A model generated the notes under the pieces. That model worked only from the letters and a program-made list of their open reading frames with translations. It ran no database searches and was not told where the DNA came from. From assembly GCF_014653175.1 (NCBI RefSeq), contig NZ_BNAG01000003.1, positions 124,001 to 188,000 on the forward strand: 64,000 nt of DNA, written 5' to 3'. Positions 11,595 to 47,658 of the stretch are shown in pieces. The position numbers and the translations under genes are program-made. The stretch comes from Roseivirga thermotolerans (GTDB taxonomy: Bacteria > Bacteroidota > Bacteroidia > Cytophagales > Cyclobacteriaceae). Positions within the stretch are counted from its first letter, which is position 1, and every line of letters starts with the position of its first letter.

Positions 11595-14003
11595 TTAAAA
11601 TGAGTACTTAAAGCTGGCCAGGAATGCCCTTGGCTCCTGTGGTGTTATGGTGGTCCAACCTGAGTAGTATTGTTTATTGAACAGGTTATTCACTTTAAGG
11701 GCAATTCTAAACTTAGATACCTCGTAGAATACCGATGCATTGGCAATAGTGTATTCAGGAAGTATAAAGTTGCCCGTAGCGGCATAGTTAATGGTAGCTC
11801 GTTCGCTGGCACCATTGAAACCGGCTCCAACACCCAAACCTTTGTGTGTTCTGTAACTTGCCCAGAAGCTATACACCTTTTCAGGGCCCGCGCCCAGAGG
11901 TCTTCTGCCCGCAATGTTGGCGTTGTCTGTATTGGTGGTTTCGCTATCATTGTCGGCAAAAGTGGCTCTCAGATTTAGACCATCAATAGGGTTGGCATTT
12001 ACCTCCAGCTCAAAACCACTGCTCACTACTTCTCCTTCCTGAATTCGGTTGAACGGGTCGGAAGGGTCTGTCATTACTACATCGCTAACGGTAATGTCGT
12101 AATAGCTAAGTGTGGCATTAAGCCTGTAGTCCAGAAGATTGGCTTTTACCCCAAACTCCAGTTGATTGGCCTGCTCCGGGTCGAATACCTTGAGCGACTG
12201 AGGGCCACTGTTAGGGTCGCCCACCAGGGCAGGAGCCACATTGTTAAAGCTGTTTTGGTAGTTGGCAAATATCGAAAGCTTATCGGCTACCGGCTGGTAG
12301 AGCAGTCCAAACTTTGGAGAAAGAGTGAACTGATCGTAGCCTCCGACACCTTCCAGATTTCCTTTGTCTTCAAACCGATCGAAACGAAGGCTGGCCATGG
12401 CCGAAAATCGAGGGGTAATATTTACCACATCCGAAATATAAGAGCTAAGCACCTCGCGTTTCACCGAAGTAGACCCATGTCCCTGAGCGGCAAGAGCCGC
12501 ATCTACCGCTGCAGTGGTTAGTGGAAAACTACCGGTTTCTACAGCAGGAGTAAAGGGGTTGTCGGCAATGGCTTCACCATTGGGTCTCACATTGCCGTAA
12601 AAGGCATACCCTGAGCTGTTGTCTACATAGCGGGAAGCCAGGTAGTCGAGCCCAATTAGCACTCTGTGGCGCATACCGCCTAACAGAAAGTCACCGGTAA
12701 AATTCTGCTGTATGTCGAAGGTGTTAGTTTGTGCATTTTGCTTGCTAATAAAGCGGGTGAAAGTGTTGCCACCTAAAATACCGTAATCGTAGAGGTATGA
12801 ATAGTAGCCGTCTGTAGTGGTATGGCTGGTAGATACCAGTGTTTGAGAGGTCCAATTGTCGGAAAGTTTGTAGTTGGCCTCTGCCCTAAAGTTGCTCGTA
12901 GGGTTAGAAAGCGTTAGGTGGTTGCTGGTAAACGACAGCTCGTTGTTGTAGCCCAACTCTTCCAAAGAACCAGCCTCACTTGGGGCAGCACGGTTTAAGA
13001 AAAGCATAGTGGGGTTGGTTTGTGTGGCTTCTGTAATTTCCCCGTAGAAGTTGAAACTCAAACGGTTGTTTACTCTGTAAGAAAGTGAGGGGGCTATAAA
13101 AAAAGTTTCGCGAAACCCGGCATCCTGAAAGCTGCCTTTGGTGAGGTATGAAGTGTTTATTCGGAAATAAACATCTTCTTCACTGTCAAGAGCTGTGTTG
13201 TAATCGAGCGTTAGCTGATTGAGTCCGAAAGAGCCAGTGGTATAGTTTACGCTACCTCCGCGGCCCACAAAGGGCTTTTTGGTTACCACATTAATAATAC
13301 CACCATACGAACCTACCGAGTTGCCAAACAAGGTAGCCGAAGGGCCTTTGATCACTTCAATGCGCTCAATGTTGGCCGCATTAATGGTGCCGTTGGTTAA
13401 GCCGGGCATACCATTTACCAGCTGAGGCTGTACAGAGAAACCTCTCAGGCTGTAGTAACCTGCACCATCGCCCCCTCTTCCTGTAGACGTCCAAAGTTTG
13501 TCCACTCCCGTGGCATTTTTTAGAGCGTCTTCAAAGCTGGTTACCGTTTGCGATTCCAGCAGATCGCTGGTTATGGTGCTATATACCTGGGTGTTTTCCA
13601 GGTCTTTAAGCGGAAGTTTGGCTACATAGGCTGTTTGTTCTCTCGAGAAAGCATTTACCCGACTGCCGGTTACCACCACATCTTGAAGTATCTCATTGCC
13701 TTCGTATAGAGTAATGTCTTCCAGCAAGGTGGTTTTTTTGGGCTCAATGGTTGTGGTTATTTCCACCGTTTTAAACCCTACAAAAGAGAGGCGCACCACT
13801 GCTGTACCGGCCGGTAGGCCTGAAATATTGAATGAGCCGTCAATATCCGTTATTGCTCCTTTCTCGGTACCCACAACCATAACGGTTACTCCAATGAGCG
13901 GGTCCTGGCTGTTGTCGAGCACTTTTCCTTTGAGGTGGCCTGTTTGGGCCAAAGCGGGGGCTGCAAAAAGCAGCAAGGTCATTATCTGTAAAATTCTTTT
14001 CAT
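11595..14003 (-). CDS. TonB-dependent siderophore receptor
   Basis: The 802-residue receptor has a signal peptide (LLFAAPALAQ), a carboxypeptidase-regulatory-like domain (about 20-110: GHLKGKVLDNSQDPLIGVTVMV, SFVGFKTVEI), a plug of FhuE/FecA type (SFEDALKNATGVDKLW, GYYSLRGFSVQPQLVNGMPG, IERIEVIKGPSATLFGNSVGSYGGIINVVTKKP) and a barrel ending in an aromatic residue (FLASFKYSF). The plug wording is typical of ferric hydroxamate or citrate receptors. With the DUF3325-like, DUF3649-like and PepSY genes it forms a four-gene siderophore-use operon. The promoter holds a Fur-like box and a perfect NarL-type repeat. The siderophore itself cannot be named, and no biosynthesis genes are in the window. 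Confidence 0.9.
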   Translation of the reverse strand: MKRILQIMTLLLFAAPALAQTGHLKGKVLDNSQDPLIGVTVMVVGTEKGAITDIDGSFNISGLPAGTAVVRLSFVGFKTVEITTTIEPKKTTLLEDITLYEGNEILQDVVVTGSRVNAFSREQTAYVAKLPLKDLENTQVYSTITSDLLESQTVTSFEDALKNATGVDKLWTSTGRGGDGAGYYSLRGFSVQPQLVNGMPGLTNGTINAANIERIEVIKGPSATLFGNSVGSYGGIINVVTKKPFVGRGGSVNYTTGSFGLNQLTLDYNTALDSEEDVYFRINTSYLTKGSFQDAGFRETFFIAPSLSYRVNNRLSFNFYGEITEATQTNPTMLFLNRAAPSEAGSLEELGYNNELSFTSNHLTLSNPTSNFRAEANYKLSDNWTSQTLVSTSHTTTDGYYSYLYDYGILGGNTFTRFISKQNAQTNTFDIQQNFTGDFLLGGMRHRVLIGLDYLASRYVDNSSGYAFYGNVRPNGEAIADNPFTPAVETGSFPLTTAAVDAALAAQGHGSTSVKREVLSSYISDVVNITPRFSAMASLRFDRFEDKGNLEGVGGYDQFTLSPKFGLLYQPVADKLSIFANYQNSFNNVAPALVGDPNSGPQSLKVFDPEQANQLEFGVKANLLDYRLNATLSYYDITVSDVVMTDPSDPFNRIQEGEVVSSGFELEVNANPIDGLNLRATFADNDSETTNTDNANIAGRRPLGAGPEKVYSFWASYRTHKGLGVGAGFNGASERATINYAATGNFILPEYTIANASVFYEVSKFRIALKVNNLFNKQYYSGWTTITPQEPRAFLASFKYSF

Positions 14004-35418: not shown

Positions 35419-37590
35419 CTAGATAGCACTAACCAAGGCCAGGTTGTTTTCCTGGTAGAATTCACTGAAGAAATTATCACTTTCAAAAAGCTCTGATGGC
35501 GTGCCGCATGAGGTGATAGCATTCTCTTCCAGAATGTAGATTTTATCGGCTTTCGCTGCCGTTGTTATTCTATGGGTGACCAGAAGAATAAGCTTGTAGC
35601 TCTTCAGCCTGTCCAGAAGGTTTAAGACAAAATGCTCGGTTTTTCTGTCCAAAGCAGAAGTGGCCTCATCAAGCAACAAAATTTCGGGGTTCGACCAAAG
35701 GGCCCTGGCCAATCCAACCAACTGCTTCTGGCCACCGGAAATGTTGACACCTTCTTCCCCCAAAATAGTGGCATAGCCTTGTGGGAACTCTTTGAAGTAT
35801 TGATCGAAACCGAGGGAAACCATGAAATCTTCGAGAGTTTTAATACCGGTAATGGTCTCCCCAAGAAGTATGTTGTCCAGTAAACTCCCATTGAAAATCT
35901 TTATCTCCTGAGGGACTACACCAATCTTGGACCTGACGGTTTTTGTATGAATCTCCCTGTAATCATGTCCATCGATTGAAATTTTGCCTTCTTCAGGAAA
36001 ATAGAACTTCTGTAATATTTGAAGGAAGGTACTTTTTCCACCGCCACTCTCTCCTAAAAGGCAGACCAGTTCTCCTTTATTCAGTTCTAGATTGATGTTT
36101 TTAAGAAGTTGTTTTCTACCCGGGAATCTGAAGCTGAGGTTTTCTACTTGAAGTCTTTGAATATTTGACATTTCCTGAACGGTATCATTTTCATTTGTCT
36201 CAGGTTCTATCGCAGTGAATTCATACATTCTGTCGAAAGCAATTTTAGCCTCTCTAATCTGAATGTTGGCTCTTGCTACTGCTTCTATTGCAGGGAAGAG
36301 TCCGCCTGCCATAGAAAGAAGGGCAACCAATTCACCAAGCTGAAGGGTTTCCTGAATAACCAGGAATGAAGAAAAGGCCAATACACCTGTCATGGCTATT
36401 ACACCAATGATTTGGGTGTAGACCCCATATTTATTGCCCACCAGGCCAAGGTCGTATACTTTGCTTTGGAAATGGCCATATATGGTCTCGGTTATTTTAC
36501 TGAAAACAGACTCCTTATTCTGGTTTTTAATGACCTCGATGCCTTGAATAGTATCAACATAATTGCTCTCATTCATGGCGTAGGCCTGCATAACCTCTCT
36601 TTGACCGGTTGTAATTGGCTTGGTGTATTTCCATACCAAGAAGATATAAATGGGAACGAATGCCAGTAACAACAAGCCAACCTGCCAGGAATAGGTGAAG
36701 ACGAAGGCCAAAGAGGTTATTCCCAGGAGCAATTGAATCAGAGTATCTCCTAAAACAAAGCTTATGGTTCTCTGAATTCTGTTGGTATCGTTCATTCGGG
36801 CTATTAATTCTCCGGTTTTTCTGGTGTCAAAAAAGCGTTTCGGGAGGTATAGTAGTGCTCCATAGAATTTTTGAATAATCCGATTATTGAAATCTTTCGA
36901 TTGCCTTAAAATCAATAGGGTCCTTAAATATAAGACTCCGGATCTGGCGAGTAGTAAAATAGTGAGTAATGCCAGACCAAGAATTAGCCTTTCGGAGTCC
37001 TGACTTGGAATGATATCATCAATCAACTTTTGAGTGAATATAGCTGTGCTGATACCTAGAATGGAAATTACAATACCTAGAAAAGTGGCAATGCCGAGAA
37101 TGGGATAATCCTCTCTAACCAAAGAAAGCAGCCATTCCTTTTTCCTGCCCTTTTGTTCCTGAACCCTTTCAAGTCTGTCGGTGGGCTTTACGAGGAGTAG
37201 GGCCCTGGATCGCCAGATTTTTGCAAGTTCTTCTTCCGTAATATATTCAATACCCTTGGCTGGGTCGCTGATCAGAAATTTTTGGTTTTCATATCCAAAG
37301 ACCACTACATAGTGCTGTAGTTTACCTTCTATAATTACATGGAGTATTGCGGGGTGCTCCAGTGTCTTCAAATGTTCAATTTCTGCTTCAAATCCTTCAG
37401 CATCCAGGCCAATTTGGTTGGCTGCCTGGTAAAGGCCTAAGAGAGTTGTGCCTTCTTTGGAGGTGCCGCTAAATTCCCGAAGTTTTTCCAGGCTGACCTC
37501 GCCCTCGTAATATTTTATAAGGGTATAAAGACAAGTAACCCCACAGTCGGATTGATCTCTTTGCTTGAAGTGCTTAGGTGACCTTGCCAT
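35419..37590 (-). CDS. Peptidase-containing ABC exporter (C39 peptidase, PCAT type)
   Basis: The 723-residue protein has an N-terminal C39 peptidase (1-130) with the triad Cys16 (QSDCGVTC), His93 (LQHYVVV) and Asp109 (ISDPAKG), a six-helix exporter domain (about 155-440) and an ATPase (about 475-710) with Walker A GESGGGKS, signature NISGGQKQLVGLARAL and Walker B ILLLDEATSALD. Such proteins cut leader peptides after Gly-Gly or Gly-Ala/Ser and export the product. The two peptides encoded upstream in the same operon have such leaders and are the likely substrates. A separate HlyD-type adaptor is absent. Confidence 0.92.
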   Translation of the reverse strand: MARSPKHFKQRDQSDCGVTCLYTLIKYYEGEVSLEKLREFSGTSKEGTTLLGLYQAANQIGLDAEGFEAEIEHLKTLEHPAILHVIIEGKLQHYVVVFGYENQKFLISDPAKGIEYITEEELAKIWRSRALLLVKPTDRLERVQEQKGRKKEWLLSLVREDYPILGIATFLGIVISILGISTAIFTQKLIDDIIPSQDSERLILGLALLTILLLARSGVLYLRTLLILRQSKDFNNRIIQKFYGALLYLPKRFFDTRKTGELIARMNDTNRIQRTISFVLGDTLIQLLLGITSLAFVFTYSWQVGLLLLAFVPIYIFLVWKYTKPITTGQREVMQAYAMNESNYVDTIQGIEVIKNQNKESVFSKITETIYGHFQSKVYDLGLVGNKYGVYTQIIGVIAMTGVLAFSSFLVIQETLQLGELVALLSMAGGLFPAIEAVARANIQIREAKIAFDRMYEFTAIEPETNENDTVQEMSNIQRLQVENLSFRFPGRKQLLKNINLELNKGELVCLLGESGGGKSTFLQILQKFYFPEEGKISIDGHDYREIHTKTVRSKIGVVPQEIKIFNGSLLDNILLGETITGIKTLEDFMVSLGFDQYFKEFPQGYATILGEEGVNISGGQKQLVGLARALWSNPEILLLDEATSALDRKTEHFVLNLLDRLKSYKLILLVTHRITTAAKADKIYILEENAITSCGTPSELFESDNFFSEFYQENNLALVSAI

Positions 37591-37598
37591 AACGAATT

Positions 37599-38483
37599 TT
37601 AATTAAGAATATCTAAGCCGAAAGAAACATTGACAAATCTCTCCTTTGGAACTAAGCCTTTGATATAATCTGCCATATCAATCCATCTATCCTCATTTAT
37701 TTTTATCATGGTTTGATAGCCATTACTTGTTTTTTTAATTTCTCCCCGGATATCAATTCGCTCTGCTCCTTTTATTTCTTTAATAAGATGCCCATCTGCA
37801 TCAACTGGCCCTATCAGTTCAATTCCAACGAAGAAGCCATTATCAGGGAGAATGACTTCGTATTTACTGATATCAATTTCATAGTATTTCTCATTCTCGT
37901 CAGAGACGATGAATGTTTCTCCAATTTTGCCTATTTCTTCTCCGGGATTGTTATTGTCTTTACTGGTAAGGTAAAATCTGGGGCGGATTAACAAGTCACT
38001 ATATTCTATGTCCCTGCGATTAAAAAGAGGGATTCTAAGGGTGCTGACTTTGTGTCCAGAGGAGTATAGTTCCGGAGGCATATACAACACAATTTGCATG
38101 TTACGCGCTATGTTAATCGTATAGTTGGTTTTTTTGGTGAGGTTACCTATTGTGCTTTTCCGGCTTTTTTTTGTTGCGCTTTTTACCACAACTGATCCTA
38201 CATCCAATTCAAGAGACTCTAGGAACAAAGTGTCGGATTGAATAGAGTCTGCATAAAAAACGGAGGGTATATAGGTTACATGCTGAATCCATATTTTTTC
38301 GAAGAGTCCTATTTCAAATTCTCCCTTTTCGTCAGTGTAAGTAAAGAAGTTGTTATCCGCCTTTACAGTTGCATAGGTTATTGGCTCTTTAGTTTTTTTA
38401 TCGGCTAGCACATAACTTTTTGACTGTGCCAATAATTGAATGCTGCCTACAAAGAACAAAGTAAGAACCAATAACCTTGACAT
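37599..38483 (-). CDS. Secreted carboxypeptidase-regulatory-like protein of the peptide operon
   Basis: A 294-residue protein with signal peptide (LTLFFVGSIQLLAQ) and an N-terminal beta-sandwich resembling the carboxypeptidase D regulatory fold (KKTKEPITYATVKADNNFFTYTDEKGEFEIG), then about 190 residues of predicted beta structure with no family recognised. It lies eight bases before the exporter gene and 16 bases after peptide B, so it is expressed with them. A role in self-protection, outer-membrane passage or cell-surface assembly of the peptides is possible; the sequence does not decide. Confidence 0.7.
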   Translation of the reverse strand: MSRLLVLTLFFVGSIQLLAQSKSYVLADKKTKEPITYATVKADNNFFTYTDEKGEFEIGLFEKIWIQHVTYIPSVFYADSIQSDTLFLESLELDVGSVVVKSATKKSRKSTIGNLTKKTNYTINIARNMQIVLYMPPELYSSGHKVSTLRIPLFNRRDIEYSDLLIRPRFYLTSKDNNNPGEEIGKIGETFIVSDENEKYYEIDISKYEVILPDNGFFVGIELIGPVDADGHLIKEIKGAERIDIRGEIKKTSNGYQTMIKINEDRWIDMADYIKGLVPKERFVNVSFGLDILN

Positions 38484-38499
38484 TTTCGAAATCTAATTG

Positions 38500-38700
38500 T
38501 CAATCAACTGTTATGCAAAAATCTACATCGAAAGTCTCTTCTGTTTTGGTCCTTATGAAGAGGGCATGATACGTCCTAGTACATTGGCGTCCGCAGTGAA
38601 ATGCGTCAACCCAAATTACTTCGCCACAATCCCAATCAGTCCATCCAAAGAATTTTGATCCTTCGATTTTTTCCATTGAATTCAAATCTAACTTTCTCAT
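38500..38700 (-). CDS. Four-cysteine peptide B with GG-type leader, putative exporter substrate
   Basis: A 66-residue peptide from the ATG at 38700; an in-frame TTG at 38712 would add only four residues. The leader MRKLDLNSMEKIEGS has the hydrophobic spacing and Gly-Ser end of a double-glycine-type leader, giving cleavage after residue 15. The core starts KFFGWTDWDC and has four cysteines (25, 36, 40, 62). It aligns with peptide A: F-x-GW-x-DW-x-C, C-x3-C-x6-LFIR, final Cys. Two disulfides are plausible after export. No match to a named bacteriocin is recognised. Confidence 0.75.
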   Translation of the reverse strand: MRKLDLNSMEKIEGSKFFGWTDWDCGEVIWVDAFHCGRQCTRTYHALFIRTKTEETFDVDFCITVD

Positions 38701-38712
38701 TTTCTGTCTCAA

Positions 38713-38919
38713 TTAAAGTTGATTAATTTCTCTTGCTACAATTTCACAAGGACCGGAATTGTAATCGTAAGCGTCCCGAATAAATAACGTAAAATGTTTT
38801 CGGACACAATTCGTCCAGCAAAGTCCGTTATTAACAGTGGATGTGCATGACCAGTCCGACCATCCCCAAAACTTTCCGCCTTGAAGATTCAATAATTGTT
38901 CATTTTCTAATTTTCTCAT
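38713..38919 (-). CDS. Four-cysteine peptide A with GG leader, putative exporter substrate
   Basis: A 68-residue peptide. The leader MRKLENEQLLNLQGG ends in a true Gly-Gly at 14-15, the expected cut site of the C39 peptidase encoded in the operon. The core starts KFWGWSDWSC, with cysteines 25, 34, 38 and 58 and the LFIR motif at 45-48. The leader has the same length as that of peptide B, and the first Cys falls at the same position. Together they look like a two-component secreted peptide. It starts 13 bases after the membrane protein gene. Confidence 0.78.
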   Translation of the reverse strand: MRKLENEQLLNLQGGKFWGWSDWSCTSTVNNGLCWTNCVRKHFTLFIRDAYDYNSGPCEIVAREINQL

Positions 38920-38932
38920 GTGGTTATAAAAT

Positions 38933-39565
38933 TTAGTTAAAAATAATGTCAGATAAACTGAGCAACACTACGAGTAGCAAAAGACTTGAGTAATAAGATA
39001 GTATTGTGATTTTCAGGTATTTAATAAATTTGAGTTGGCCATTTTTGAACAGTCTCCATGTTAAAAGGAATATATAGCACAACTGAGTGATGGTGACAAA
39101 TTTTAAGATATTAAGTAGTACGAGGGGTAAGTTTTGATTTTTGAACAACCATAGGATGGATTGAAAATCGCTGTTTTCTATGTCCATCATTTGAGGTTTC
39201 AGTATGAATATCTTGATAACGATCAAAATCAGGTAGCTCAGGGAAAATACTATATGTGCCTCTGCGGCAGACGTCATTATATATTTTATTCTTTTTTCTC
39301 CGGATGAGAAAAAAGTGCCAATCCAGATGGTTAATAGAGTGAATAATATGATCCCAGCCATGTATGGCAGAATAAATAGATAATTGAGCCATTCTGTGGA
39401 TCGATCAAATTGTATTAAGTCACTTAATTCCTGGTCTGTTAGTCTACCATTAAATGACCTGAAATACATTTCATCTGAGTATAGGAAATTAAGCTCTATG
39501 AAAACGGCAAGCGCATAGATTGCAACATTTACTAAAATAAGAGAAACGAGCTTTTTTTTCATCAA
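38933..39565 (-). CDS. Membrane protein of the peptide operon, candidate immunity protein
   Basis: A 210-residue protein with five predicted membrane helices: LVSLILVNVAIYALAVFIEL, YLFILPYMAGIILFTLLTIWIG, AHIVFSLSYLILIVIKIFIL, LVLLNILKFVTITQLCYIFL and ITILSYYSSLLLLVVLLSL. No family motif is recognised. It is the first gene of the operon, directly before the two peptides, a common place for bacteriocin immunity proteins, so self-immunity is a reasonable guess; a role in export or sensing cannot be excluded. The second ATG (39562) may be the real start. Confidence 0.7.
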   Translation of the reverse strand: MMKKKLVSLILVNVAIYALAVFIELNFLYSDEMYFRSFNGRLTDQELSDLIQFDRSTEWLNYLFILPYMAGIILFTLLTIWIGTFFSSGEKRIKYIMTSAAEAHIVFSLSYLILIVIKIFILKPQMMDIENSDFQSILWLFKNQNLPLVLLNILKFVTITQLCYIFLLTWRLFKNGQLKFIKYLKITILSYYSSLLLLVVLLSLSDIIFN

Positions 39566-39814: not shown

Positions 39815-40084
39815 TTATTTAGAACTAGCACTGAATTTAGATATTTGATTCTGATCTGGTTTCCGTGAAAACCCATAGGACCACTCTGTCTCATATTCGT
39901 AACAATATGAGCCAAGTGAGAGATCAAAGAAAATCGGGGCTCCAAGTTCTTTCATGAGCTCTATTGTATAATAAAGCTGTCTTTCACTAATCTCCAGTTT
40001 TCTGGCACATTGTTTAGGAGAACCTGTTGCCTTAAGCCTAATGAGATGATGCAGCCTTTCTATTCTTTGTATTTGTTTGAGCAT
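39815..40084 (-). CDS. Small HTH regulator beside the peptide operon
   Basis: An 89-residue protein with an N-terminal HTH_11-like domain: IQRIERLHHLIRLKATGSPKQCARKLEISERQLYYTIELMKELGAPIFFD. The remainder (LGSYCYEYETEW) is the short beta tail usual in this type of small Bacteroidota regulator. It is separated from the operon by 249 bases and reads in the same direction, so it is probably transcribed from its own promoter. Control of the peptide operon is inferred from position only. Confidence 0.75.
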   Translation of the reverse strand: MLKQIQRIERLHHLIRLKATGSPKQCARKLEISERQLYYTIELMKELGAPIFFDLSLGSYCYEYETEWSYGFSRKPDQNQISKFSASSK

Positions 40085-47043: not shown

Positions 47044-47658
47044 ATGAGAAAAGCAGCTTTATCCCTCCTTTTTGCCTTTGTAGCACTGGCAGTTCTGGGT
47101 CAGAACGATTTTAAAGAAGGGGTACATTACGATATTGTATCAGACAAAAAGTCAGAATCGCCCGTTGTTACCGAGTTTTTCTCTCTCTTCTGTGGCCATT
47201 GCTTTCAGTTTGAACCTTTAATTGATACACTGGTAAAGGCATTGCCCAGCAGTGTTAATTTCGAAAAGTCTCATGTAGATTATATTCCACGCGACAATAA
47301 GCCGGTGAGTTTTGGCATTGTAAAGGCGTTTATTGTGATGGGAGATTTAGGAAGGCAAAAGGAGTTGTCTGAAAAGTTTTTCACGGCTATACATCTGGGC
47401 AAAGAACCTATCGATACAGAGAGTGAAATTAGACAGATTTTTATTGAAAGCGGAGTTTCGGCCGATGAGTTCGACAGACGCTATTCCAGCCAGGAGGTAG
47501 TGCAAAGAGCTGAGAAAATGGCTGCCCTATGGGTAGACCGTCAAATATCAAGCGTTCCCACTATTGTGGTGAACGATAAGTATAAAATCAATATGTCGGC
47601 CTTGAGTAATATGGAGCAACTTATCGCTCTCACCAAACAACTGCTTAAGAAGCCTTAA
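47044..47658 (+). CDS. DsbA family periplasmic thiol oxidoreductase
   Basis: A 204-residue protein with signal peptide (FAFVALAVLGQ) and a DsbA fold: active site Cys50-Gly-His-Cys53 in FCGHCFQFEPL and the cis-proline loop SSVPTIVVNDKY. The C-P-H-C of classical DsbA is C-G-H-C here, as in more reducing thioredoxin-like members. It may form disulfides in exported proteins, including the four-Cys peptides of the window, although it is 8 kb away. No DsbB or VKOR gene is adjacent. Confidence 0.88.
   Translation: MRKAALSLLFAFVALAVLGQNDFKEGVHYDIVSDKKSESPVVTEFFSLFCGHCFQFEPLIDTLVKALPSSVNFEKSHVDYIPRDNKPVSFGIVKAFIVMGDLGRQKELSEKFFTAIHLGKEPIDTESEIRQIFIESGVSADEFDRRYSSQEVVQRAEKMAALWVDRQISSVPTIVVNDKYKINMSALSNMEQLIALTKQLLKKP

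Follow-up and report, generated by a model that had tools for sequence, protein, structure and literature searches.

Bacteroidetocins provide a close precedent for the peptide locus analyzed here. In the excerpted text of PMC6671954, a bacteroidetocin locus encodes a five-TM protein, a precursor with a 15- to 16-residue leader ending in GG and a core of 42 to 53 residues with at least 2 and often 4 cysteines, and a PCAT exporter, and most bacteroidetocin regions also contain a thiol oxidoreductase gene. Loss of the TM or the oxidoreductase gene weakens bacteroidetocin activity, and the set of four genes is sufficient in E. coli (PMC6671954). The target of bacteroidetocins is BamA according to the excerpts of PMC8546649. 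In those of PMC6671954, no immunity gene is evident in the loci, and the producers show self-inhibition.

Layout of the locus and likeness to described systems

The window, i.e., the whole stretch of 64,000 nucleotides from Roseivirga thermotolerans that was analyzed, carries on its minus strand, read from 40084 to 35419, an HTH gene followed by a 249-bp gap and then by the genes of a TM protein, peptides A and B, a protein named CPD, and a C39 ABC exporter. The intergenic gaps TM/A, A/B, B/CPD, and CPD/exporter are 13, 12, 16, and 8 bp, respectively. The features are the following:

39815..40084, minus strand: small HTH protein of 89 aa, located 249 bp before the operon; perhaps a regulator
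38933..39565 (ATG at 39562), minus strand: TM membrane protein with five hydrophobic stretches in Kyte-Doolittle windows
38713..38919, minus strand: peptide A, 68 aa, with a 15-residue leader ending in GG (38875-38919) and a 53-residue four-Cys core
38500..38700, minus strand: peptide B, 66 aa, with a 15-residue leader ending in GS (38656-38700) and a 51-residue four-Cys core
37599..38483, minus strand: CPD, 294 aa; the start looks Sec-like by eye, and the N-domain has a weak CarboxypepD_reg-like match (E 0.0011, below cut-off)
35419..37590, minus strand: C39 peptidase ABC exporter (PCAT type), 723 aa, with the C39 domain at residues 7-137 and Cys16
47044..47658, plus strand: DsbA-like thioredoxin-fold protein (PF01323, E 7.6e-18), approximately 8 kb from the cassette

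Overlapping Kyte-Doolittle windows were merged before the stretches of the TM protein were counted. Peptide B is given in its 66-aa form, which starts at the ATG at 38700; the ORF caller begins it at an upstream TTG (38712). The exporter contains the Pfam domains PF03412 (E 6.3e-36), ABC_membrane, and ABC_tran. A pattern search upstream of the operon found no Bacteroidota-type promoter box. No thioredoxin-like or thiol oxidoreductase gene is present in the window cassette, whose five genes leave no room for one, and the ORF lists of the cassettes in genomes G002 and G809 contain no thioredoxin-like gene either. The DsbA-like gene outside the cassette is a possible general source of disulfides.

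The initial annotation had placed two paralogous four-cysteine peptides at 38500-38919, and both ORFs are found there on the minus strand. The details given for them also hold: both leaders are 15 residues long and begin with MRKL, the first cysteine is residue 25, and in both peptides the C-x3-C pair is followed by x6-LFIR and by a last cysteine located 20 (A) or 22 (B) residues past the second cysteine of the pair. In full, the cysteines are residues 25, 34, 38, and 58 in A and residues 25, 36, 40, and 62 in B. The A and B cores align with E 2e-8 in a single comparison. To score the leaders, we used a model trained on 34 leaders from other exporter loci, from which the peptide family of A and B was left out. 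B (28.0 bits) and A (27.9 bits) ranked 1 and 2 among the 1177 Met-started 15-mers of the window, 16 bits above the third (11.8 bits). Together with the core alignment, this ranking indicates that the observed peptide pair is more than chance. Of the G002 copies, B scored 29.1 bits, but A only 10.4 bits, which counts against this conclusion.

The cores follow a family pattern near [KRP]-F-x-G ... C ... C ... F/W-I ... C. F2, G4, C10, C23, and I32 (A core numbering) are invariant in eight cores. The structure predicted for the A core consists of three strands at middling confidence (pLDDT 68). Foldseek found no match to this model in the PDB at E 0.001 or below, and a profile search of PDB sequences gave one match only, to a thioredoxin and at chance level (E 0.28).

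The initial annotation had also proposed a new peptide family without a counterpart among named bacteriocins. That A and B form a separate family is supported, since neither matches Pfam, NCBIfam, or PADLOC above cut-off and relatives occur in only five other genomes among those searched. The absence of a counterpart is not, because the bacteroidetocins, as the excerpts of PMC6671954 describe them, share with the window the 15-residue leader (ending in GG in A), a core of approximately 50 residues with four cysteines, a five-TM gene (as judged from the five hydrophobic stretches), and an ABC exporter with a C39 double-glycine peptidase domain; the comparison is one of architecture. Neither system has a recognizable immunity gene. 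By contrast, the window locus lacks a thiol oxidoreductase gene, has a B leader ending in GS, encodes two tandem paralogous peptides, carries CPD between the peptides and the exporter and an HTH gene upstream, and has relatives with Sec-like signals. Its cores also differ in net charge at pH 7, with about -0.2 for A and about -4.1 for B compared to +6 and +2 for bacteroidetocins A and B in the excerpted source. Under the loose published definition, its architecture places the window locus with the bacteroidetocin loci, and by that analogy it would work like one.

Class IIa (pediocin-type) bacteriocins resemble A and B as small unmodified peptides with cysteines, among which both GG and Sec leaders occur according to excerpts of PMC3546714. 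However, the YGNGV motif is missing from both window cores, the producers of A and B are Bacteroidota, and the leaders are shorter (15 residues versus 18-24 for class IIa in the excerpted PMC6671954). Gly/Ala-rich class II-type cargos (L105-L148 and others) share the leader type, the exporter family, and the TM protein, but their cores are hydrophobic and mostly have two cysteines, and their loci yielded no CPD-type gene. No description of A or B was found among the papers listed in the literature searches; large mining sets may include them, such as that of PMC12648078, whose excerpted text gives a total of 481,654 candidate class II precursors and covers Bacteroidota.

Conservation of the peptides and their genomic site

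The whole cassette is present in identical order in G002, a second species of the genus. Identity between the window and G002 is 72% for A, 66% for B, 50% for TM, 46% for CPD, 65% for HTH, and 74% for the exporter, and 61% and 88% for the flanking glycosyltransferase and UvrD proteins, respectively; synonymous sites are saturated throughout, and hence no dN/dS is given. The B leader ends in GS in both species. Both peptides exceed the TM and CPD proteins in conservation, as would be expected of a signal no less than of a weapon. In both the genome of the window (G000) and G002, the cassette lies between a glycosyltransferase gene and a UvrD-type helicase gene, which follow each other within 222 bp in 15 of the 19 genus members. 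This gap (window:35172-40216) is a variable site, empty in 15/19 genomes, occupied by the cassette in 2/19 and by other genes in 2/19: G001 has an HTH relative and other genes there, with neither peptides nor exporter, and G013 has other genes. G007, a genome of the same genus, encodes elsewhere an exporter that is 72% identical over the first ~470 residues and is accompanied by a different four-Cys peptide (L092), so similar machinery carries different cargo. Upstream of this peptide, an HTH relative stops in frame after 53 residues (L092:12005-12166).

Another family of the class, which we guess to be Flavobacteriaceae, provided three genomes that each have a single relative of the core: G809 (locus L157), G990 (L158), and G1057 (L162). 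The G1057 core is a firm relative (E 2.5e-9; 0/1000 shuffles scored higher). A weaker, single relative occurs in L142, from a Prevotellaceae MAG, which was located through its exporter and CPD genes rather than through a peptide search. Its peptide was the best of 44 cargo cores against a six-core profile, with 1/1000 shuffles scoring higher, and hhalign gave E 1.4e-4 and a probability of 53%. On this sequence evidence, the L142 peptide likely, although not certainly, belongs to the core family of A and B.

The genome samples screened were all draws from larger groups. Matches were obtained in 35/390 genomes of the order at E 0.05, where only G000 and G002 were strong, and in 2/390 of the family at E 0.001. 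The phylum sample gave 3/395 (G000, G809, and G990) and the sample from the family of G809 gave 3/378 (G809, G990, and G1057). In the class sample, 11/305 genomes matched at E 0.01, and the only strong one was G1057, itself part of the query. Apart from the named relatives, the weak matches (27/59 genomes at E 1; 35/390 at E 0.05; 11/305 at E 0.01) appear to be chance, and many have in-frame stops; a stop-free one in G1615 lies antisense inside a 1242-aa ORF. The genome of the window itself contains a third, weak match with one stop (G000:C1, E 0.013). Peptide pattern scans returned nothing from genome_contigs or viral_contigs, nor did tblastn with A alone from plasmids.

Export routes and the CPD protein

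A scan of genome_contigs yielded 49 related exporter loci, whose record titles include Cytophagales, Flavobacteriia, Prolixibacteraceae, Prevotellaceae, Balneolaceae, and others. More than 3 kb of sequence upstream of the exporter was available in 31 of them, and in 30 of these 31 a cargo with the A/B leader type was found in the 6.5 kb before or the 4 kb after the exporter, a count that is partly circular because these loci also supplied the training leaders of the model. The context thus gives good support to export of A and B by the neighboring C39 exporter, as the initial annotation had proposed. At a protein threshold of E 1e-5, the same 31 loci contain a TM relative in 28 cases, a thioredoxin-like gene in 26, and an HTH relative in 5. 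Upstream of the related exporters in L104-L152 there are 38 GG-leader cargo peptides, most of them Gly/Ala-rich and with two cysteines, and several of these loci hold two or three different ones. The excerpted text of PMC6363468 counts Gly-Ser, the end of the B leader, among the ends of PCAT leaders, together with Gly-Gly and Gly-Ala.

The family peptides of L157 and L142 likewise combine a GG leader with an exporter, and L142 also has a thioredoxin-like gene. The G809 exporter is split into two ORFs by an in-frame stop (L157:11000-13150), which is either a broken gene or a sequencing error. In L158 and L162, the core instead follows a start rich in lysine and then a hydrophobic stretch, which together appear Sec-like by eye, and no C39 exporter or TM relative was detected at E 0.001 in L158 (19.5 kb) or L162 (19.0 kb). 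An edge match in L158 was rejected as an exporter because it covers the ATPase part alone and its ORF resembles an oligopeptide-type ABC ATPase. Homologs without a linked exporter, named beforehand as evidence that would count against export, therefore do exist, but the Sec-like signals before their cores argue for export by another route and not against export, and so support export of the core. Such a swap between GG and Sec leaders has a precedent in class IIa bacteriocins, which show the same split in the excerpts of PMC3546714. The change from a GG leader to a Sec-like signal also marks the start of the mature core. Near the Sec-type peptide/CPD pair of L158, the 3' end of a dprA-like gene (by eye) is duplicated (L158:9962-10192 and 12028-13164), which may mark how the pair entered.

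A CPD gene adjoins the peptide gene in 6/6 loci (G000, G002, G809, G990, G1057, and L142), although L142 is no independent case, its CPD genes having been used to locate it. In Pfam searches, CPD matches the CarbopepD_reg_2 N-domain alone, often below cut-off, with no sign of a membrane or kinase domain. The similarity between the G1057 CPD and the others covers 209 columns, reaching past the N-domain. A structure model built from five CPD sequences had a mean pLDDT of 29. Elsewhere in its genus (4 of 5 genomes), the G1057 CPD has no relative at E 1e-10. In L142, four tandem CPD homologs stand behind one family peptide and are followed by the thioredoxin-like gene and the C39 exporter (L142:1767-5530).

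In the exporter loci, we defined as CPD-type any gene with E 0.001 to either CPD profile, a product of 200-520 aa, and a position within 202 bp downstream of the cargo. Eight loci of the exporter family have a CPD-type gene downstream of the cargo. The GRAVY of their cargo cores ranges from -0.23 to 0.86, compared to 0.60 to 1.42 for 30 cores in loci without such a gene (Mann-Whitney p 4.8e-5, a value that is too small, the sequences being related). Five of the 31 exporter loci have no detected thioredoxin-like gene, for which a detection miss is possible, and four of these five contain a CPD-type gene (L117, L134, L139, and L152). In addition, a full-length CPD-family protein of ~323 aa occurs in a conserved setting in 5/5 genomes of one genus without a family peptide (L183, L184, and L187 among them). 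A six-frame profile search of the five loci for the peptide gave a best E of 0.17, and ORFs of at least 60 aa were inspected in three of the five. Because this relative occurs without the peptide, the presence of a CPD relative does not prove that of a peptide. A role of CPD in self-protection or as a peptide-binding partner is our guess.

Interpretation of the peptide pair

A and B are a real and conserved pair of peptides that is very probably exported. We favor, with moderate confidence, the view that they belong to a bacteroidetocin-type, disulfide-bonded, and probably antibacterial family that has a core and a partner gene of its own. A and B would be precursors of secreted class II peptides of this type. 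The C39 domain of the exporter would bind the 15-residue leaders and cut them after GG (A) or GS (B), and the exporter, helped by the five-TM protein, would move the 53- and 51-residue cores into the periplasm. Up to this point, the mechanism is well supported. In the oxidizing periplasm, the four cysteines would pair, and the freed peptides would most likely hit other Bacteroidota, with the cell surface or the periplasm as the site of action, by analogy with bacteroidetocins. CPD would be a secreted partner of the core and not of the exporter, most likely for self-protection or peptide binding. The cassettes of the window, G002, and G809 speak against this explanation in lacking a thioredoxin-like gene, which is usual in the exporter family. 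It is also weakened by the neutral to acidic cores, the 10.4-bit leader of the G002 A peptide, the conservation of the peptides above TM and CPD, and the middling model of the A core with no PDB fold match.

Several of these observations could also be read differently. If the peptides were signals, CPD could be their receptor or part of a reception chain and the upstream regulator its output; the conservation of A and B above TM and CPD, the pairing of peptide and CPD with or without an exporter, and the regulator-like gene upstream in both the window and G809 would fit. However, CPD has no membrane or kinase part by Pfam, the HTH relative of G001 occupies the same site without any peptides, and approximately 50 residues with four cysteines is long for a bacterial peptide signal, so that we regard a signaling role as unlikely. 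We give somewhat less credit still to A and B acting jointly as a class IIb two-peptide bacteriocin. Their genes are in tandem, similar in length, and kept in an identical cassette order in two species, but the relatives in L157, L158, L162, and L142 are single, and the GxxxG motif, a mark of class IIb bacteriocins, is missing from both cores.

It seems very improbable that A and B are precursors of modified RiPPs, of the kind that carries GG leaders and is modified by radical SAM enzymes in Bacteroidota. The A leader resembles TIGR04149, but weakly so (E 0.13; 12.1 bits versus a cut-off of 25), the genes are 8 to 16 bp apart with no spare gene for a modifying enzyme, and the other operon proteins have no radical SAM match.

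Beyond the bacteroidetocin-type reading, which we prefer, we put forward tentatively, as a possibility at rather less than even chances, that the real unit consists of the cysteine-rich core peptide plus the secreted CPD, joined to PCAT machinery in some lineages and to Sec-like signals in others. CPD would then be a new kind of periplasmic self-protection protein or receptor, and, within the exporter family, the more soluble low-glycine cargos would have a CPD-type gene directly downstream, whereas hydrophobic Gly/Ala-rich cargos would go without. The bacteroidetocin loci in the excerpts of PMC6671954 lack an evident immunity gene, which raises the question of how Bacteroidota producers of peptide bacteriocins survive their own products. 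The extra secreted protein CPD, found in all six loci of the family, offers a concrete candidate for immunity or for a receptor, and the pattern of leader, exporter, and CPD is a usable key to further peptides.
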